Below are positions 13,944 through 48,491 of a DNA stretch of 64,000 nucleotides, piece by piece. The notes beneath the pieces are model-generated. The model did no database searches. It worked only from the letters and a program-made list of their open reading frames with translations, and was not told the origin of the DNA. The first letter of the stretch is position 1, and each line of letters begins with the position of its first letter. The translations under genes and the position numbers were made by a program. This stretch comes from Candidatus Methanoplasma sp. (GTDB lineage: Archaea > Thermoplasmatota > Thermoplasmata > Methanomassiliicoccales > Methanomethylophilaceae), in assembly GCA_031256955.1 (NCBI GenBank), contig JAIRPP010000013.1:124001-188000 (forward strand). The letters are read 5' to 3'.

Positions 13944-16900
13944 ATGAAAGACACCACCGAGACTGCCGCCACTAAAAAGGCAGTCATAATCGCCGCCGCC
14001 CTAGTGTTGCTAGTGGCAGGCGTAGCTGTCGTTCTTTTCTCCATTGGCGGATCGGACAACGATTCGCGGGGGGGGGGAGAAGGAACCGGTCAGGTACACT
14101 GTGACCTATGACTCTCGCGGAGGGTCGTACGTCTTCCCGTCCGTAGCCTTGGACGGGGAGAGGATCGGGGACCCGGGCCCCTCCGAGAGGGAGGGGTATC
14201 AGTTCTCCGGTTGGTTCAAAGACGCGTCCGCCACGTCCCAATGGGACTTCGGCAGGGACGTCGTGACCAAAAACACCACCTTATACGCCAAATGGGGCGT
14301 CTCCGAGGGAGACGTCGGGCCGCCTCCGTACTCCGTGTCCTTCGACACCCACGGCGGATCCTACCTAACCAGCATAACCGACGTCGAATACGATTCGCGC
14401 ATAGTCGCGCCGAAACCCGATCCCGAGAAGCTCGGGTACGTCTTCGGCGGATGGTACAAGGACGCGGCGTGCACAGTCGCATGGAGCTTCGCGTCCGACT
14501 ACGTCGTCGGCGACACGGTCCTCCACGCCAAGTGGTCCGCAATAACCTACACCGTGGCATATCACGGCAACAAGCCCGCCGCCACCGAGGGAACCGTCGG
14601 CGAACCCGACTTCCCGATAACTCACACCTACGACGAGGCCAGGGATCTCGAGCCCTTCGAGGCGTTCACCCTGACCGGGTACAGGCTCACTGGATGGAAC
14701 ACCCAAGCCGACGGGAGGGGAACCGCCTACGCCTTCGGACAGAGCGTGACCAACCTCAGGTCCGAACTGGGCGAAACGTTCGACCTGTACGCCGTATGGG
14801 TCGCGATAACCTACTGGGTGGAATACAACAACGTCGCTCCCGCCTCGACCGAATCGGTCCCGGTCGGTCCGGACGGAAACGTAAAGATAGCGGTGGAGCA
14901 CACCTACGATGCTGGGAAGACGCTCGAATCGCAAACCACGATCGGCTTCGAACTGAAGGGGTACATTATGAACTCGTGGTCGAGGGTCCCGGGCAGCACC
15001 GACGAGATGGACGCGGCCTTCACCCCGGCCCAAGGGAATGTGAAGAACCTCGCGGACACGCAGGACGCTGTCGTGCAACTGTACGCCCTGTGGCTGCCGA
15101 TACAGTACAAGGTGATATACGTGTCCGGCATGGCGGGCGTGGCTAACGTAGAGGACCCGCACACCTACGTCTACGACAAAAGCTGGAATCTGATGGCTAA
15201 CCCGCTCGCCAAGACGGGTTACGACCTGACCGGATTCACGGCGACCCGGGAGGGCGGGTCCGCGGCGGAGGCGTTCGCCCCGGGCCAGCTCGTGAAGAAC
15301 CTCGCGTACACGCACCTCGCGAAGGTGGAAATGAACCCCGTGTGGACGCCGATAACCTACGACGTGGTGTACAAAGCCAACGGGGGAACCCCGACGGAAG
15401 ACATCGTCATAGAGCACGTCTACGACCAGGCGAAGAGCCTGGAGTCCGGCGGGTTCGCCAAGACGGGATACAACCTGACTGGATGGAACACCAACTCCGC
15501 CGGGACGGGGACCGCCTACGCCCTCGGCGAGTCCAAGACCAACCTCAGGAGCACCGCGGGCGACTACGACCTGTACGCCGTGTGGACGCCGATAACCTAC
15601 ACCGTGGTATATCACGGCGACGCTCCCACGACGGCCTCGACGACCACGACAGGGAGCATAGCGAACCTGCCGTGCACATACGACGCGCTTCCGACGCTCG
15701 CGAGCGCCGGCTTCACCCTGACGGGATACACGCTCAAGGGCTGGACCCACACCTCCGGCGAGACAGTGAAGAACTACCCCCTCGGCCCGGCCCCGGCCAA
15801 CCTGAGCTCCACGGACAACGATACCGTGGACCTGTACGCCAAGTGGGAGGCTAACACCTACCGCGTGACCTTCAACAGCAACGGTGGCTCCGGATTCGCC
15901 GCCCCGATCGAGCACACCTTCGACGTCTATTACACGCTCCCGGGAGCCGCCGGGTTCTCCAAGACCGGGTACACCATGGGCGGATGGAACACCAACTCCG
16001 CCGGGACGGGGACCAACTACGACGCGGGCAGCAGCCAGCGGAACCTGTCCACGGGCGCTAACATAGATCTGTGCGTCAAATGGATCCCGGACACCTACAT
16101 CGTCTCGTTCGACGCGAACGGGGGGACGTGGGCCTCGGGATACCCCGGGGACATGACGTTCACCTACGGCGTCACTCAGAGACTGCCGCCCGCGAGCTCG
16201 GTCACCAGGACCGGGTACACCATGGGCGGATGGAACATAACCCCCGAGGGGGACGGAACCAACTACACGGTCGGTGTGGAAACCAGCAACATGCCGTATG
16301 TTGATGGCAGACTGACCCTGTACGCCAAGTGGGACCCGATAACGTACTCCCTGGAGTATCACGACGACAAGCCGGCAACCGATTCGGTCTTATACGGAAG
16401 CGTGCCGAGCGTGCCTTCGTGCACATACGGCGCGTCGATGACGCTCGCGTCCTCCGGCGGCTTCACCCTGACGGGGTACACCCAGACGGGATGGGCGAGG
16501 ACCTCGGGCGCGCTCACGGCGGATTTCGCCTGCGGCGCGACGATCACGTCGGACCTCAAGTCCGGACAGGGCGAGACCGCGAACCTGTACGCCGTGTGGG
16601 CTCCGATAACGTACTCCGTCACCTACAACGGCAACGGAGGATCGGGATCCGTGACGGGCCACACCGGGTGCAAATACGACGAGAACGTGACGTCCGCGTC
16701 TAGCGGGTTCACCAAGACGGGGTACATCTTAGAGGGATGGGCCAAGGACCCGACGCACGCGAAGGAGATCGGCCTCGGCGAACCCTTTAAGAACCTGACT
16801 TCGACCAATGGCGGCTCTGTGCCCCTGTACGCCGTGTGGAAGCCGATAGAGTACACCGTGACGTATTTCGTCCCCGTCGACGCCACCGGATCCGTCGGCG

Positions 16901-17826
16901 ACGATGATTTCATCTACGACATCGACAAGAATCTCTCGGACGGCGTGGGCATGGACAAGGGCGGGCACACCCTGACGGGATGGTCGAATTCCCTGAACGG
17001 GGCGAAGGCGTACGACCTCGGCCAGTCCGTGAGGAACCTGACCGCCGTAAATAACGACGTCAAGACCCTGTACCCTGTATGGACGCCGAAAACCTACATC
17101 GTGACGTTCTATAAGAACGACGGGACCACCGACGTCCATGCCACAGCTACCGTCTCCTATGGCTCTCCGGTGACGACGGCGCCAGCGAACCCGACCAGGA
17201 TGGGGTACGTCTTCGCCGGATGGTATCAGGAGGCCGGATGCGTAAGCGGGCATAACATCGGAAGCACCCAAGTTTACGCAGACACGCCCCTCTTCGCCAA
17301 ATGGGACCCGATAACGTACTCCCTGGAGTATCACGGAGACGCTCCCTCGGGGGCATCGACGACCACGGCCGGGAGCGTGCCGAGCGTGCCTTCGTGCACA
17401 TACGGCGCGTCGATGACGCTCGCGGGCGCCGGCGGCTTCACCCTGACGGGGTACACCCAGACGGGATGGGCGAAGACCCCGGGCGCGCTCGCGGCGGATT
17501 TCGCCTGCGGCGCGACGATCACGTCGGACCTCAAGTCCGGACAGGGCGAGACCGCGAACCTGTACGCCGTGTGGGCTCCGATAACCTATAAGGTGATCTA
17601 CAAAGCCAACTGGGGAATCCAGGAGGACGTTGTGGACTGGGTCGCCTTCGACCAGGACTATGACCTGAGGCCAGGCGCATTCACTGCACCTGAAGGAATG
17701 AGCTTTGTCGGATGGAACACCGAATCCGATCTGAGTGGTACTGACCTCAATCCACTCGCGACCGTTAAGAACCTCAAGGATGAACAGGACGAAGAGTACA
17801 CCCTCTACGCCGTGTGGGGACCATAA
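13944..17826 (+). CDS. InlB-repeat surface protein with a frame break at a G10 tract
   Basis: The start ATG 13944 opens a frame with a typical anchor: MKDTTETAATKKAVI, then the hydrophobic helix IAAALVLLVAGVAVVLFSI. As written, this frame stops at TGA 14109-14111 after 55 residues. The ectodomain lies one base out of frame from about 14062 to 17826 and holds 15 InlB/Listeria-Bacteroides repeats of about 70-90 residues, each ending in LYAVW or LYAKW, with the last one ending the protein. Removing one G from the run of ten at 14068-14077 joins the two parts into a 1293-residue protein. So the gene is phase-variable, recently broken, or misassembled. A hairpin terminator follows directly. Confidence 0.85.
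14068..14077 (+). repeat. Homopolymer of ten G between anchor and ectodomain
   Basis: Ten consecutive G follow GATTCGC. The run encodes the start of a Gly linker between the membrane helix and the first repeat. With nine G (or six, or twelve) the full protein is made; with ten it ends early. Confidence 0.9.
16328..16611 (+). repeat. Near-identical internal repeat, copy 1 (partner at 17303-17585)
   Basis: This stretch encodes repeat 10 of the surface protein (SLEYH ... LYAVWAP). Apart from a short variable stretch early in each copy, it reads almost base for base like the stretch at 17303-17585, which encodes repeat 14. The other repeats of the protein are far more diverged, so the pair must be recent or kept alike by gene conversion. 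Confidence 0.85.
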
Positions 17827-40418: not shown

Positions 40419-41264
40419 TCAATCCTCGAAATCCCCCGGCAGGAGGCATATCCTGCGCTTCTTGGGGTCTTTCACCCTCGACGCGATGATCTCCTGCACC
40501 GAGTTGAATCCCTCCGGGGATACGGCGGATCCCGCGAAATGCCTCACCAGCACCCCGTCCCACCTCATGTACCCCGCGTATATCGGGTTGTGCAGCAGCT
40601 TCCCCAGGTTGAACTGGTTCCACGGGTTGCCCCTCCTGGTGGATATCCCCTCCTTGTTGAGGCGGTACGCTATGGAGTCCATGGTAGACCCCGAGAGGTA
40701 CGAGCCGAATATGCCCTCCGCCACCTCCATCTCCTCCGGAACCGATTCCAACAGGCCCCCCGACAGGCGGTACCCGAACGGCGGGTTGAACCCCAGCGTC
40801 CTGCTCCCGGCGGGGGTGTTGCTCATGGATTCTGCCTTCTCCCTCATCCCCATGTGCGTCCTCTCGCCGATCTGCTCGCTCTCCAGCTGGGCTATCCTCT
40901 GAATCATGTCCACCACGAACCTGCCCAAGGCGTTGGTGGTGTCCAGGGCCTCCATGGAGGAGACGAACATCTTCCCGCTCTTGCCGAGCGAATCCATCAT
41001 GGCCATGAAGTTGCGGCTGTTCCTGTGGATCCTGTCCATCTTCATGACCAGGACCACGTCCCAAGAATCCATCTCCGCCATCATCCTGGCGTAAGCGGGG
41101 CGCCTGGCGTTGGTCCCTGAATACCCGTCGTCCTCGTACACCGCGTGCACGTCCCATCCCTCTGCGACGCAATAGCTGGCCAGGATCTCCTTCTGCGCGT
41201 CCAGGGAGTATCCCCCCATGGCCTGCTCGTCCGTCGAGACCCTGACGTATACCGCGGCCCTCAT
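40419..41264 (-). CDS. Serine site-specific recombinase, compact form (copy B)
   Basis: 281 aa. Resolvase domain with YVRVSTDEQ (catalytic Ser10), then SWDVVLVMKMDRIHRNS (catalytic Arg helix), and QRIAQLESEQIGER at the start of the long helix. A recombinase domain follows (PPFGYRLSGG ... LHNPIYAGYMRWDGV). The zinc ribbon and coiled coil of large phage integrases are absent, so it is a shortened form. GTG 41270 overlaps the stop of the upstream recombinase; ATG 41264 is two codons later. Tandem paralogue of the next gene. Confidence 0.88.
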   Translation of the reverse strand: MRAAVYVRVSTDEQAMGGYSLDAQKEILASYCVAEGWDVHAVYEDDGYSGTNARRPAYARMMAEMDSWDVVLVMKMDRIHRNSRNFMAMMDSLGKSGKMFVSSMEALDTTNALGRFVVDMIQRIAQLESEQIGERTHMGMREKAESMSNTPAGSRTLGFNPPFGYRLSGGLLESVPEEMEVAEGIFGSYLSGSTMDSIAYRLNKEGISTRRGNPWNQFNLGKLLHNPIYAGYMRWDGVLVRHFAGSAVSPEGFNSVQEIIASRVKDPKKRRICLLPGDFED

Positions 41265-41266
41265 GG

Positions 41267-42043
41267 TCACGCGTCCGGGAGCGCCGCTCCGTTAACCCGC
41301 TCGTACTCCTCGCGCTCGACTATCGCCTCGTGGCGGCCCTTGCGGACTATCCCGTCCCACCGGACGTATCCCGCGTACAGCGGGTTCTCCAGTATGTTCT
41401 TGACGGACTGCCCGCTCCATCTGGAGCTGATCTTGGGCCTCACGCCCGTCTCGTTGAGCGTCTCCGCTATGCCTCTGTAGGATCTCCCCTCCGCCCTCAT
41501 GGAGTATATGAGGCGGACCGCGTCCGCCTCGTAGTCGACCACGCCCATCTCGCCCCTGCGGTAGACGTACCCGTACGGGTGCCCGGACCCCATGGGCCCG
41601 TCCCCGCTCCTGGCCTTCCTGGCCATGCCTATCTTGACCCTCTCGCCGATCTGCTCGCTCTCCAGCTGCGCTATCCTCTGTATCACGTCCATGACGAACC
41701 TCCCCATGGCCGTGGTGGTGTCGAACTTCTCCTGGAGGGACATGAACTCCTTGCCCCTCCTGCGGAGGTCGTCCATCATGAGCGTGAAGTTGACGCTGTT
41801 CCTGTGTATGCGGTCCATCTTCAGGACCAGCAGGAGGTCCCAACCGTCGGATTCGGACATCATGCGCTCGTATTCCGGGCGGGACGCGCTGCGCCCGGAG
41901 AAGCCCTCCTCCCGGTATACGCCCGCGGCGTTCCAGCCGCGTACCTTGCAGTATGCCTCAAGCCTTTTCTGCTGAGCGTCCAGAGAGAAGCCCTCCTTGG
42001 CCTGATCCTCCGTGGACACCCTCATGTAGAGCGCCGCTCGCAT
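41267..42043 (-). CDS. Serine site-specific recombinase, compact form (copy A)
   Basis: 258 aa. Resolvase domain with YMRVSTEDQ (catalytic Ser10) and LLVLKMDRIHRNSVNF, long helix QRIAQLESEQIGERV, and recombinase domain YGYVYRRGEMGVVDYEAD ... LENPLYAGYVRWDGIV. No zinc ribbon. It shares its layout and many residues with copy B, with which it overlaps by a few bases, so the two are made together and may act as a pair. They lie directly downstream of the second adhesin cluster on the same strand. The att or inversion sites were not identified. Confidence 0.88.
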   Translation of the reverse strand: MRAALYMRVSTEDQAKEGFSLDAQQKRLEAYCKVRGWNAAGVYREEGFSGRSASRPEYERMMSESDGWDLLLVLKMDRIHRNSVNFTLMMDDLRRRGKEFMSLQEKFDTTTAMGRFVMDVIQRIAQLESEQIGERVKIGMARKARSGDGPMGSGHPYGYVYRRGEMGVVDYEADAVRLIYSMRAEGRSYRGIAETLNETGVRPKISSRWSGQSVKNILENPLYAGYVRWDGIVRKGRHEAIVEREEYERVNGAALPDA

Positions 42044-42118
42044 AGGATTCCCATCCTAGGGGCTCATCGCCGTGGCGGGATATAAATTAGGCCGTCTCCC
42101 GGAAGCCCCGGGGACGCG

Positions 42119-42162
42119 TGAAAAAAAGGCCGGGCCCGCCCTCCGCGCGGAGGGCGGGCCCG
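42119..42162 (-). terminator. Long hairpin terminator after the BspA gene 42168-44099
   Basis: A perfect palindrome with 16-bp arms (42131-42162) is followed on the minus strand by GCC and seven T. It begins 5 bases beyond the stop codon of the adhesin gene and separates the adhesins from the recombinases. Confidence 0.85.
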
Positions 42163-42167
42163 TGCGT

Positions 42168-44099
42168 TCACGGGACCTGGGAGTACGGCCTGCCGCCGTT
42201 CCAGTTCGCGTCCCAGCCATGGTTGGGGGCCGGAGACTGGACGGAGATCGAGAGCTGCGGGGAGCAGCCTTCGAACACCTCTTCGCCCATGGTCGCGATG
42301 GTGTTGGGCAGATACACGCTCGCCAGGCTCGTGCACTCTTCGAAGGCGCGCTCGCCTATGTGGGCGACGCTCCCGGGTATCGAGACCGAGGCCAGGGACG
42401 AGCATCCGTAGAACGCGTAGTCCCCTATGCTCGACGCCGTCGCGGGTATCGTCACGGACTCCAGGCTGGAGCATCTGAAAAACAGGTCGCGCGGTATGGA
42501 CGACAGCCCGCTGGGCAGGGTGACGCTCTTCAGGCCGGAGCATCCCAGAAAGGCGCCGTCCCCGAGGCTGGTCACGCTGTCCGGGACGATCACGGCGAGC
42601 AGGCTCCTGCATTCGTAGAACGCGGCCGTGCCTATGCTGGCGATGCCGCTCCCCAGAGACAGGGAGGCCAGCTCCAGGCAGTGGTTGAAGGCGCCCCCGC
42701 CTATAGAAGCCACGCTGCCGGGGATGGATACCGACTTCAGGGCGCAGCCCTCGAAGGCGCGCTGGCCTATGGCGGAGAGGCCGTCCGGGAGGCTTATGGA
42801 CGACAGCATCGAACAGTAGTCGAACGCCTCGCCCCCGATCTCGGCCAGGCTCGCGGGCATGACCACGGACGAGAGGCTGTCGCACCATCTGAACGTTCTG
42901 TCCTCTATCTTCGCCAGGGTCCTCGGGAGGGTCGCGCTCACGAGCGCGGCGCACTCTTCGAAGGCGCCCGGGCCGATGTAGCCCACGCTGTCCGGTATTA
43001 CCACGGAGGTCAGGCGCGGGCATTCCGCGAACGCGCGCCTGCCTATGCTCTCGACGGTCTCGGGGATGTACGCGGATCCGATGTGCGCGTTGCTCTCGAA
43101 GGCCCCCTCCCCTATGGAAGCCACCTTCCTGCCCAGGCTCCACTCGGGTATGGCGACGAGCGCGTCCCTGGACGCGAGCGCGTCGTAGAGCTCGCACTCC
43201 CCCTGCCCCGAATCCGCGAATCCCAGGCCGACGGTCCCCTTCCAGTACGCGTAGAGGGTGATCTCGCGATCGTACGCCCACTGCCCGCTGTCGGGAACGC
43301 CCGCGGTGTTCGACGGGTCCGGGTCCCCTACGGCGTAGTTGACCCCTCCCATCATCAGGAACCATCCTCCGAAGGAGTACGGCCACCTGGTGGGGCCGGA
43401 CGGGAGCGAGTACGCCTCGCCGAGGTCCAGGACCATGGACTTCAGGGAGTCGCCCCCGTCCGCCTTCTGATAGTCGAACGTCACCGGGTATCCCTTCTTC
43501 CACCCGGCGTACAGGGTGACGTCGCGGTACACGCGGTCCGTCGAGAAATCCCAATCGTTAGTGCATTCGGGCTCCATGTACCATCCCAGGAACGCGTAGC
43601 CCTGGCGGAACGGGGCGAGGGGCGCGGCTATCCTGGACCCCTCCTCCACGTCAGCGAGGCCGGCGACGGGGGACCCGCCCCGGCTGTCGAAGGTCACGGT
43701 GTACCTCTCGCGCGTCGCCGACCCGTCCCCGGGGACCCATTTCGCGTACAGCACCGTGTCGCTGTGGATCGTGTCCGAGACGAAGTCCCATCTGTTCGCG
43801 CACGCGGCCTCCCTGTGCCACCCGTCGAACAGGTATCCCTCCTTCGTCGGCGGGTCCGGCGTGTGGACCTTGCCGCCGTCGCGGACGGTCTCCCTGATGA
43901 AGGCGGGCCTGCCGCCCTGGCTGTCGAAGGTGACTTCGAACTCGAGCGGCGCGTCTATGTCCCCGCCCCCGTCGCCGCCGCCGTCCCTGCCGCCCGTCGG
44001 CGAGGCGGCGATGAACGCGGCGAACGCGGCCGATGCTATCAGCAGCGCGATCAGCGCTATGAGCAGCGCTCTCCTCTTCTTCTTTTCATTTCTCTCCAT
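42168..44099 (-). CDS. BspA-type leucine-rich-repeat / InlB-repeat surface protein
   Basis: 643 aa. N-terminus MERNEKKKRR, hydrophobic helix ALLIALIALLIASAAFAAFI, Gly/Asp linker, then InlB-type repeats with KW or GW ends (residues about 50-260). About 13 BspA leucine-rich repeats follow, with asparagine-poor SIPGSVASIGGGAF-like units. The C-terminal tail has VQSPAPNHGWDANWNGG and ends YSQVP. The leader has CCAAGGGGG before the start. Very similar in layout, and in both ends, to the next gene and to the small remnant at 46289. Probable adhesin. Confidence 0.9.
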   Translation of the reverse strand: MERNEKKKRRALLIALIALLIASAAFAAFIAASPTGGRDGGGDGGGDIDAPLEFEVTFDSQGGRPAFIRETVRDGGKVHTPDPPTKEGYLFDGWHREAACANRWDFVSDTIHSDTVLYAKWVPGDGSATRERYTVTFDSRGGSPVAGLADVEEGSRIAAPLAPFRQGYAFLGWYMEPECTNDWDFSTDRVYRDVTLYAGWKKGYPVTFDYQKADGGDSLKSMVLDLGEAYSLPSGPTRWPYSFGGWFLMMGGVNYAVGDPDPSNTAGVPDSGQWAYDREITLYAYWKGTVGLGFADSGQGECELYDALASRDALVAIPEWSLGRKVASIGEGAFESNAHIGSAYIPETVESIGRRAFAECPRLTSVVIPDSVGYIGPGAFEECAALVSATLPRTLAKIEDRTFRWCDSLSSVVMPASLAEIGGEAFDYCSMLSSISLPDGLSAIGQRAFEGCALKSVSIPGSVASIGGGAFNHCLELASLSLGSGIASIGTAAFYECRSLLAVIVPDSVTSLGDGAFLGCSGLKSVTLPSGLSSIPRDLFFRCSSLESVTIPATASSIGDYAFYGCSSLASVSIPGSVAHIGERAFEECTSLASVYLPNTIATMGEEVFEGCSPQLSISVQSPAPNHGWDANWNGGRPYSQVP

Positions 44100-44250
44100 T
44101 TTCAGTTTCCCCCTTGGTAGTCGTGTATGTTTGAAAAAATGTTGGGGTTTGGACCCCGCGATCCCGTCCCGGCTCGGATGCCCCGAGCTGGGGCGGGATC
44201 GCGGGTAAGCGATATCGGGCGCCGCTCGCCTGAGAGGGCGTCCTATCGGT

Positions 44251-46125
44251 TCATGGGACCTGCACGTAAGGTATCCCGCCGTTCCAGTCCGACGCCCACC
44301 CGGAGTGGGGGGCGGGGGACTGGACGGTTATGGAGGTCAGAGACGAGCATCCCGCGAACGCTTTGCTTCCCATGGACGTCACGCTGTTGGACACGTACGC
44401 GCTCGTGAGACCGCTGCAATCCTCGAACGCCTCGTCGCCTATGCTGGCCACGCCGCTCTGCAAGGTGACGGACTTCAGTCCGTCGCAGTACGAGAACGCC
44501 TCGTCGCCTATGCTGGCCACGCTTCCCGGTATGGTTACGGACGTCAGGCTGGCGCAGCTTTCGAACGCGCGGTTCCCGATGCTGGCCACCTTGTCGGGTA
44601 TGGATACGGCGGCCAGATCCACGCAGTAGCCGAAAGCGCTCTCCCCGATGCCGGTAACGCCGCTCGGTATCGTTATCGACGTCAGGCCGCATCCGAAGAA
44701 CAGGTTATCCTCTATCGTCGTCAGCTTGTTGGGGAGGACCGCGCTCGTGAGGCCGCTGCAATCCGCGAACGCGCCCACGCCTATGCTGGTGACCGTGTCC
44801 GGTATGACGATCGACGTCAGTTCGACGCAATTGACGAACGCATTCTCTTCGATGGCGGTCACGCCGCTCTGTATGGTCACCGACTTCAGTTCTATGCAAT
44901 TGTAGAATGTGCGGTCTTCAATGACTTTCAGGCTCTTCGGGAGAACTATCGCCTCCAGATTGGAGCAGTATTCGAACGCCTCGTATCCTATGCTTTCGAC
45001 CGCGTCGGGGATGCGGACGCTTTTGAGGTTGCTCAAGGCGGCGAACGCCCTGAACCCGATGCTGGCGACCGTATCCGGTATGTATATGCTCTCGGTGTAG
45101 TAGCTTCTGGCGAATGCCTCTTCCATTATGGACGTGACCTTCCTCCCCAGGCTCCACTCTGGTATCACTATCGACACGTCGCTCGCGTATCCGAAACTCT
45201 TGAACTCGCATTCTCCGGGAAGGGTGTCTTCGTAGTCCATGCCTATGCTCCCGTTCCAGTGGGCGTACAGCGTCATGTTCTGGGCGTACGGCCACGACTG
45301 GCCGTCCCACAGGCCCGCTATGTTCGCGGGATCGTCGTCTCCGATGGTCGCGTTGACCCCGCCGACCATCAGGAACCACCCCCCGAAGTCGAACGGCGAC
45401 CTGGTGGGCCTGGGCAGCTGGAACTGGTCCCCGAAGTCGATCACCATGGCCTTGTCGGAGTCCCCGCCGGTCGCCTTCTGGTAGTCGAAGGTCACCAGGT
45501 ACCCTTTGGCCCATCCCGCGTACAGGGTTAGGTCCTCGTAGACGCGGTCCATGGAGAAGTCCCATCCGTCGGTGCAGGCGGCCTCCTTGTACCATCCCCT
45601 GAACACGTATCCGCCGCGGGTCGGATCCGCGGGGGGAGATATCCTGGACCCCTCCCTGACGTCGGTCAGGCCTGCCACGGCGGAACCACCCTGGCTGTCG
45701 AACGCGACGGAATACGTCTCGTACGGCGCCTGGCTGTCCTCCGAGACCCATTTCGCGTAGAGGGTTATGTCGTTGTGGACCGTGCGGCTGGCGAAGTCCC
45801 ATTCGTTGACGCAGTCCCTCTCGGCGTACCACTCGTCGAAAAGGTACCCGTCCCTGGTCGGCGGGTCGGGAGTGTGGACCTTGCCCCCGTCGCGCACCTT
45901 CACGGTGATGCTGCCGGGGCTCCCCTCGTGCGCGTCGAACCGGCCTCCCTGGCTGTCGAAGGTGACGTCGAACTCTAGCGGGTTCTGCGTGCTCCCGCCG
46001 TCGCCCCCCTTGTCGCCGCATTGGCACCTGCCCTCGGCGGAGGACGTTATCGCGTACGCGGACGCGGCGATGGACGCGAGCAGCAATATGATCAGAATTA
46101 CAAGCAGTATGCTTCGTTTCCCCAT
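44251..46125 (-). CDS. BspA-type leucine-rich-repeat / InlB-repeat surface protein
   Basis: 624 aa. MGKRSILLVILIILLLASIA anchor, short Cys-containing linker (CQCGDKGG), InlB-type repeats (about residues 50-240), a third repeat starting YLVTFDYQKATGG, then about 14 BspA repeats of the SIVIPDTVTSIG type. The tail is VQSPAPHSGWASDWNGG ending YVQVP, nearly the tail of the 42168-44099 protein. A TATA-like AATATATC lies near 46181-46189 on the minus strand and CAAAGGGGG near the start. Tandem paralogue and probable adhesin. Confidence 0.9.
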   Translation of the reverse strand: MGKRSILLVILIILLLASIAASAYAITSSAEGRCQCGDKGGDGGSTQNPLEFDVTFDSQGGRFDAHEGSPGSITVKVRDGGKVHTPDPPTRDGYLFDEWYAERDCVNEWDFASRTVHNDITLYAKWVSEDSQAPYETYSVAFDSQGGSAVAGLTDVREGSRISPPADPTRGGYVFRGWYKEAACTDGWDFSMDRVYEDLTLYAGWAKGYLVTFDYQKATGGDSDKAMVIDFGDQFQLPRPTRSPFDFGGWFLMVGGVNATIGDDDPANIAGLWDGQSWPYAQNMTLYAHWNGSIGMDYEDTLPGECEFKSFGYASDVSIVIPEWSLGRKVTSIMEEAFARSYYTESIYIPDTVASIGFRAFAALSNLKSVRIPDAVESIGYEAFEYCSNLEAIVLPKSLKVIEDRTFYNCIELKSVTIQSGVTAIEENAFVNCVELTSIVIPDTVTSIGVGAFADCSGLTSAVLPNKLTTIEDNLFFGCGLTSITIPSGVTGIGESAFGYCVDLAAVSIPDKVASIGNRAFESCASLTSVTIPGSVASIGDEAFSYCDGLKSVTLQSGVASIGDEAFEDCSGLTSAYVSNSVTSMGSKAFAGCSSLTSITVQSPAPHSGWASDWNGGIPYVQVP

Positions 46126-46288
46126 TTCCCCTTTCCCCCTTTGAAGATTTAAGCGCGTTTGGGATAAGATTGTCGTTCTAGGATATATTAGATTCCGCCT
46201 TCCAGCCTCATCGCCTCCCTTTCCGGCGCGATGCGCGGATCATAAAAAGGCGCGGCGCCTCCCGTCCGAGGGCGGGGGCGCCGCTCGG

Positions 46289-46459
46289 TCACGGGACCTG
46301 CGTCCACAGGACCCCGCCGTTCCACCCCCTAGCCCATGCCGCATGGGGGGCGGGGGACTGGACGGATATGGAGGACGCGGACGCGGCCAGCGCGGACGCG
46401 GCCAGTATGATCAAAACCAATAGAATCAACGCCGCCAGCGGCAGATCTCTCTTCTCCAT
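46289..46459 (-). pseudogene. Collapsed adhesin gene: anchor fused directly to C-terminal tail (56 aa)
   Basis: An intact frame of 56 codons. It starts MEKRDLPLAA, continues with a hydrophobic helix to ALAASASS, and passes straight into ISVQSPAPHAAWARGWNGG and the end LWTQVP. The first part matches the anchors and the last part matches the tails of the two neighbouring adhesins, while all InlB and LRR repeats are missing. Its promoter and G-rich leader are still in place and it keeps an open frame, so it may still be expressed as a tiny membrane protein. A hairpin terminator follows at 46245-46284. Confidence 0.85.
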
Positions 46460-46508
46460 TCCCCCTACCCCCTTGGAGCCGCGAGGCTCGGGGAAGGATC
46501 GGCGTCCA

Positions 46509-46517
46509 GTTTATATT
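46509..46517 (-). promoter_or_regulatory. TATA box of the collapsed adhesin gene
   Basis: TAATATAAA on the minus strand, about 50 bases before ATG 46459, with CCAAGGGGGTAGGGGG between. Its survival suggests the small gene is still transcribed. Confidence 0.6.
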
Positions 46518-46596
46518 ACGGTTCGCGTGGGCAGAGCGCGAGGGGCCGGGCCCCCCTGGAGAAAAGAGGTAAGGGGTTTGGGATGCGCTCCCGAGA

Positions 46597-48219
46597 TCAC
46601 ATCGGGGGCATGCCCGGCATCCCGCCGGCCCCTCCGGGGGGCGCGGGCTGGGACCTGCGGGCCGCGATGACGTCGTCGATCCTGAGGATCATGTTGGCCA
46701 CCTCCTCGGCGGAGTTGATGGCCTGTATCTTCACCTTCAGGGGCTCGACCACGTTCAGCTTCAGCATGTCCACGGCCTCCCCGGAGTCCAGGTCTATGCC
46801 GTAGTATTTGCCGTTCTTCTGCTTCTCGTGGGCGTTCTTCAGCTTTATTATGCTGTCGATCGCGTCTATGCCGGCGTTCTCGGAGAGGGTCCAGGGGATG
46901 ATCTCCATGGCCTTCGCGAACTTCTCTATGGCCAGCTGCTCCCTGCCGCCCACGGATGAGGCGTAGTCCGCCAGCCTGAGGCTGAGCTCTATCTCGGGCG
47001 CGCCCGCGCCCGCGACGACCTTTCCGTCCTCGATGGTCACTCCCACGGTGCGGATCGCGTCGTTGAGGGACCTCTCGATCTCCTCCAGGACGTGCTCGGT
47101 CCCGCCGCGCACGAAGATCGTTATCGCCTTGGGGTTCTTGCACCCGGTGATGAACGCCATGCCGTCCTCCCCGACGAGCTTCTCCTCGACGCACCCGGCG
47201 TGGCCGAGGTCCTTCGAGGTGATCTCGTTTATGTTGCCGACGATGTTGGCGCCGGTCGCCTTGGCGATGGCCTCGAGGTCGCTCTCCTTGAGCCTCCTGT
47301 ACCCGAGTATGCCCGCCTTGGCCATGTAGTGCTGGACGAGCTCGTCCACGGCCTTGGACCCGAAGACCACGTTGGCCCCGGCGGCCTTGATCTTCTCGAC
47401 CATCTCCTTCATCGTGTTCTCCTCCTCGGCGAGGAAGGTGCCCATCGATGCGGGGTCGGTTATCTGTATCTGGGCGTCGAACTCGGTCTTCTTGACCTCG
47501 AGGCCGCAGGAGAAGAGGGCGATCTTGGCGTTCTCGACCTTCTTGGGCATGCGGGAGTGGACGGCCTCCTTGTCTATCACGACGCCCTCCACGAGGTAGG
47601 TGTCGCCGATGACCCCGCCGACCTTCTTCTGTATGCGGATGTTCTTGGTGTCGACCTTGCCGCCGTCCTCGACCGCCTTCGCCGCCTTGACGACTATGTC
47701 CGCGAGGTGCTGGTACTCCTCTCCGACGGACTTGCCGGTGAGGGTGGTGATCGCGACCTTCTTCAGTATGTCGTCCTTCTTGGCGTCGACGGCTATGCTC
47801 TTGAGGACCTCGACCGCCTTGTCGGCGGCCAGCTTGAACCCGTTGGTTATGACCGTGGGGTGGACGTTGGAGTCTATGAGCTCCTCGGACTGCTTGAGGA
47901 GCTCCCCGGCGAGGACGACCGCGGTGGTGGTCCCGTCGCCGCACTCGCTGTCCTGAGTCTTGGCGACCTCGACGACCATCTTGGCCGCGGGGTGCTGGAC
48001 CTCGATCTCCTTGAGGATCGTCACTCCGTCGTTGGTGATCACGACGTCGCCGATCGTGTTGACCAGCATCTTGTCCATGCCCTTGGGCCCGAGGGTGGAC
48101 CTGACCGCGTCCGCGACCGCCTTCGCGGCGGCTATGTTGTTGAACTGGGCCTCTTTGTCTTTGGTTCTCTCGGTGCCTTCCTTCAGCACGATGATTGGTT
48201 GGTTTCCGTTTGCGTACAT
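46597..48219 (-). CDS. ths: Thermosome subunit (group II chaperonin)
   Basis: 540 aa from ATG 48219, which follows AGGAGATCACCCT. Typical sequence throughout: [33 protein letters not shown], the ATP-binding [19 protein letters not shown], and a C-terminal [16 protein letters not shown] with the ATPase Asp region. It ends with the flexible Gly/Met tail [12 protein letters not shown] typical of thermosomes. It folds proteins in the cytosol. A TATA-like AATATAGAAG is seen near 48263-48272 (minus strand). It probably assembles with other subunits encoded elsewhere. Confidence 0.97.
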
Positions 48220-48491
48220 AGGGTGATCTCCTATATCTCTGAAGGACAAGTAATTTTGTTCTTCTATATTAATGTTGTTTTTATTCCGCGTTTTTCAGCC
48301 AAAATCGGAGGAGGCTTGGACGTCCGTTCGGAATAAGGGGCGCTCGACGTCCGATCGGCTGGATTTGATTGAAAAACGATGCGCACAACAGCGTTAATAG
48401 TTTGTTTGACTGTTTATTTGAGCATAATTTGAAATACAATATGCTCATTTGTCCATTCAGTCTCAAACAAAGGAGACGAAGGAGGAAAAAA

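Follow-up and report, generated by a model that had tools for sequence, protein, structure and literature searches.

Results and Discussion

An internally deleted BspA paralog is probably what we observe in a 56-codon open reading frame (ORF) within the window, that is, the whole 64,000-nucleotide stretch of Candidatus Methanoplasma sp. DNA that was analyzed; the short ORF would be a young relic, and its function is doubtful. Most probably it arose in an unremarkable way, by in-frame deletion, and is not a new kind of gene. The original prediction had described a frame that fuses the N-terminal segment of BspA proteins to their C-terminal tail, and this frame is real, with both ends matching the neighboring gene. 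The join was said to be in frame, and indeed the sequence from 46459 to 46289 is uninterrupted from ATG to TGA. The observation is confirmed to lie well beyond chance. The short ORF and its signals, in order of transcription, are as follows.

46518 to 46510, minus strand: TATA-like box TAATATAAA, 51 to 59 nt 5' of the ATG
46476 to 46460, minus strand: G-rich leader CCAAGGGGGTAGGGGGA, directly 5' of the short ORF
46459 to 46289, minus strand: short ORF with ATG start and TGA stop, 56 codons, frame open, reading MEKRDLPLAALILLVLIILAASALAASASSISVQSPAPHAAWARGWNGGVLWTQVP
Codons 1 to 28 (approximately) of the short ORF, minus strand: basic and hydrophobic N-terminal segment, resembling that of the neighboring BspA genes
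Codons 29 to 56 (approximately) of the short ORF, minus strand: C-terminal end of a BspA LRR protein, fused in frame
46284 to 46244, minus strand: GC-rich hairpin (about 46284 to 46251) followed by a T-run (TTTTT), within a 60-nt fold

Expression signals and the N-terminal segment

The promoter, leader, and terminator claimed for the short ORF are all retained, as a TATA-like box, a G-rich leader, and a hairpin with its T-run. The leader CCAAGGGGGTAGGGGGA, a CAAGGGGG leader, is probably the ribosome-binding region. An AAGGGGG-like leader is found 5' of about a dozen BspA-type genes of the same genome, and the full-length neighbor at 44251 to 46125 has a TATA-like TAATATAT at a similar place. 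The 60-nt fold containing the hairpin has a free energy of -30.8 kcal/mol (z, -3.3), and the hairpin and T-run together are the probable terminator; a consensus terminator scan did not list the hairpin at about 46284 to 46251, but the fold supports it. An Rfam scan of the window found a single tRNA and nothing else.

A Pfam search of the 56-amino-acid product matched 0 families, and the product thus lacks the LRR_5 domain (PF13306) by which a BspA-type protein is recognized. Its basic and hydrophobic N terminus, preceded by the G-rich leader of the BspA family, does have the character of an export segment. The frame is open, and the TATA-like box, leader, and terminator are all there, unlike what would be expected of a degraded pseudogene. 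Many leaders of the BspA family end in A-(Y/F/L)-A, and that of the short ORF ends in S-A-L-A, a motif with which a cleavable signal peptide is possible instead of a membrane anchor. A-x-A is common after the hydrophobic segment of the family, so that this segment may not be a membrane anchor.

Likeness to the neighboring adhesin genes

Two full-length genes on the same strand adjoin the short ORF.

44251 to 46125, minus strand: full-length BspA-type protein of 624 amino acids, the nearest paralog (PF13306, E value of 1.3e-136; PF09479, E value of 2.4e-42)
42168 to 44099, minus strand: second full-length BspA-type protein, 643 amino acids (PF13306, E value of 1.6e-93)

The 624-amino-acid neighbor carries LRR_5 and List_Bact/Flg_new repeats. 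The predicted kinship with these two genes holds: the tail of the short ORF (about 27 codons) is 57% identical at the amino acid level to the gene at 44251 to 46125 (E value of 1.5e-9) and 59% identical to that at 42168 to 44099 (E value of 9e-6). At the DNA level, identity to the nearer gene is 76% over 99 bp (E value of 1.8e-12), and positions 46289 to 46399 constitute the third copy of a 111-bp direct-repeat family (D5). Elsewhere in the window, the longest exact match to the short ORF measures 22 nt and falls in the tail of the gene at 44251 to 46125; this adjacent paralog is the best match for both ends.

The tail as a probable C-terminal cap

There are about three dozen BspA-like genes in the genome, and most of their products end in I-x-V...GW...WN.... 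The tail of the short ORF is this same C-terminal end of the LRR domain, with a W...W motif common to about 27 other genes of the genome. Lying as it does at the extreme end of the LRR array, the motif is probably a C-terminal LRR cap. The tail does not form a domain of its own. A profile of the cap finds about 28 places in the genome, the short ORF among them, and a profile built without the short ORF still finds it (E value of 0.0013; next nonmember, 0.41). Both cap tryptophans and the Asn-Gly-Gly are kept in the short ORF, where an A replaces the G that usually precedes the first W.

The profile gave zero matches against 101 other genomes of the family and 146 of the order, the motif being short enough that very diverged versions could escape, and some of the genomes being incomplete. 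About 27 of the BspA-like genes of this genome thus have a C-terminal end unmatched in the other sampled genomes of the order. The cap motif therefore looks lineage specific, which would place the origin of the short gene in the BspA family of its own lineage. Because about 27 longer LRR proteins end in the cap, a cap without LRRs would be derived and not ancestral. Two congeners, G012 and G014, have BspA expansions of their own with different leaders, and among their BspA proteins with a readable end, most have a C-terminal transmembrane anchor instead of the W...W cap. Such confinement of gene ends to a lineage suggests that the ends are homogenized within species. A search of genome contigs with the full-length neighbor returned only bacterial LRR proteins, mainly from gut and rumen samples. 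List_Bact and LRR proteins have been reported in Methanomassiliicoccales (PMC7883539); a literature search for BspA together with Methanomassiliicoccales found no paper.

A variable spot between thermosome and recombinase genes

The three-gene BspA cluster lies between two conserved borders.

46597 to 48249, minus strand: thermosome (Cpn60_TCP1) gene, conserved border of the variable spot, from domain search and synteny with congeners
40419 to 42043, minus strand: two serine recombinase genes (PF00239 and PF07508), the other conserved border, from synteny

The thermosome-recombinase interval (40419 to 48249) is a variable spot. G014, whose thermosome gene is the most similar among the congeners, has a short interval without a recognizable gene. 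A small antitoxin/PIN-like pair, identified by reading, occupies the interval in four others (G006, G009, G013, and G016), and a decayed pair of this kind is present in G004. In G012, a different and unrelated BspA gene is found 3' of the thermosome gene. With the interval empty, filled by a PIN-like pair, or carrying BspA across congeners, the three-gene cluster is an insertion or expansion of its own lineage.

Origin of the short gene

The short gene is most simply explained as a tandem duplicate that underwent an illegitimate deletion. The short gene would be a third tandem copy of the adjacent BspA-type (LRR_5) genes that was internally deleted. The DNA lost would comprise the glycine-rich linker, the List_Bact repeats, and nearly all of the LRRs, some 1.7 to 1.8 kb if the copy was the size of its neighbors, and the 5' signals, export segment, and C-terminal LRR end would have been joined in frame by an event that required short homology or none. 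We infer that the loss came after duplication and was one single deletion event. The change presumably ran from the full-length to the short form. The product, if made, may be a non-adhesive exported or membrane micropeptide of little or no function, and the gene a young relic. Counted against a relic are the intact frame, start context, terminator, and cap residues, which amount to more order than an old pseudogene has.

The original prediction invoked a precise deletion between repeated sequences, and in this it does not stand. The longest exact match between the leader and the tail of the full-length paralogs is 9 nt and lies away from the junction, so that there is no support for repeat-mediated deletion or for an assembly collapse. 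By inspection, the sole in-phase match of leader and tail near the junction in the neighbor is ATAAC, which would allow a microhomology event but is no proof of one.

It is unlikely that, after the deletion, selection kept the short form as a working small protein, exported or in the membrane, such as one that regulates the BspA adhesins or serves as their decoy. It would fit the open frame and the retained promoter-like box, leader, and terminator, and also the conserved cap residues, which give a leave-one-out score of 32.5 bits, mid-range among the caps. However, a cap is without purpose where LRRs are lacking, the usual G ahead of the first W has been replaced, and the form is known as a single copy in one genome. 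Within the 83% of the genome read as stretches (1.295 Mb), there was neither a second leader-plus-cap ORF nor any other short ORF with the cap; the remainder was covered by search only. Comparison of the 56-amino-acid protein with 60 relatives yielded no genuine homolog, and a search of genome contigs with it found no relative. Weak matches in relatives (E values of 0.03 to 0.9) were inspected and discarded as unrelated frames or proteins. Conservation of the short form as an independent gene, named beforehand as the refuting observation, is absent from every relative sampled, and nothing shows it to be a gene in its own right. Nor does selection analysis inform: the ratio of nonsynonymous to synonymous substitution (dN/dS) between the tail and the neighboring paralog is 0.49 (bootstrap range, 0.14 to 1.5), which over 27 codons is compatible with constraint or relaxation and, since most of the divergence may predate the deletion, says nothing on the short form itself. 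Between the two full-length genes, dN/dS is 0.21 (0.05 to 0.52). A slimmer chance still is given to a more specific idea: expression of the collapsed gene under selection, yielding a small exported cap peptide with a modulating effect on the cell's own BspA adhesins.

Loss of the central part of a full-length gene during assembly is very improbable. The genome is fragmented (17 contigs, 88% complete), but the paralogs offered the assembler no leader-tail repeat to join, the ends of the short gene differ throughout from both neighbors, and the flanking chaperonin and recombinase genes are those of the genus. Least credible is a landing site for new ectodomains, as suggested in the original prediction, or a donor site, with ectodomains swapped by homologous recombination via the shared leader and tail: the ends are common to the BspA family and serine recombinases adjoin the cluster, but those ends are only about 65 to 76% identical to their nearest neighbors, with no exact match above 22 nt, making homologous exchange unlikely; the recombinase pair is also conserved in congeners whose spot has no BspA gene; and no gene pair was found with these ends and different ectodomains.

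Other relics of the family

BspA relics are not unusual, with examples in this genome and in G012. A relic at C5:20273-20545 (L168:1134-1647) consists of about two LRRs and a cap without an export segment. G012 has an orphan BspA C-terminal tail in L255 near 6658.

Poly-G tracts and candidate phase variation

Several BspA genes carry poly-G tracts that set the export segment in a different frame from the ectodomain, the arrangement classically seen in slipped-strand phase variation. At 13944 to 14077 (plus strand) of the window, an ATG with GGGGAGG upstream is followed by a hydrophobic segment and then by G10 (14068 to 14077), after which the frame from 13944 differs from that of a large List_Bact ectodomain ORF extending to 17823. 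Its sequence makes the gene at 13944 to 17823 a candidate for a phase-variable surface gene that is switched OFF. Elsewhere in the genome, the hydrophobic segment and ectodomain are out of frame at G11 in L171 (C5, near 17537) and at G9 in L103 (C14, minus strand), and three other BspA genes have G10 in frame. In L107, near 11523 (plus strand), G14 precedes a 1,104-codon open frame that starts with a hydrophobic segment, and an upstream ATG is, by reading, in frame with it.

Comparable tracts occur in both congeners with expansions. In G012, 28 BspA-like genes have G10 to G13 just before the hydrophobic segment (e.g., G012:C22:1072-1083, L166, L255, and L261); among those that also have a Shine-Dalgarno-like ATG upstream (n = 23), the frame matches in 4 and differs in 19. 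In G014 (e.g., L237 near 7485, L243, and L244), an ATG, often ATGACAGCATCAAGA, and then G11 to G14 stand just upstream of BspA ORFs. These arrangements suggest slipped-strand phase variation of archaeal BspA adhesins, with homopolymer errors in assembly as the main caveat. Homopolymer tracts in coding genes have been surveyed in a set of genomes with 18 from archaea, and poly(A) and poly(T) were reported to be overrepresented (PMC2831843). Judged by titles and abstracts, a literature search on phase variation in archaea yielded nothing on adhesins of this kind.

Significance and comparison with known systems

Taken alone, the short ORF is a small example of an expanding adhesin family shedding truncated copies. 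The wider context, a large BspA-like gene set with separate expansions in two congeners, is weightier, and the poly-G tracts would allow phase variation of archaeal adhesins to be tested directly. Compared with BspA-type LRR_5/Listeria-Bacteroides proteins (PF13306 and PF09479), the short ORF shares the leader, the N-terminal export segment, and the C-terminal LRR end but is without any LRR_5 or List_Bact repeat and any detected Pfam domain. Like the gene relics and internally deleted paralogs of expanded surface-protein families, it is a remnant that lies within a tandem cluster and lacks a counterpart in relatives; unlike them, it has an intact reading frame and expression signals.
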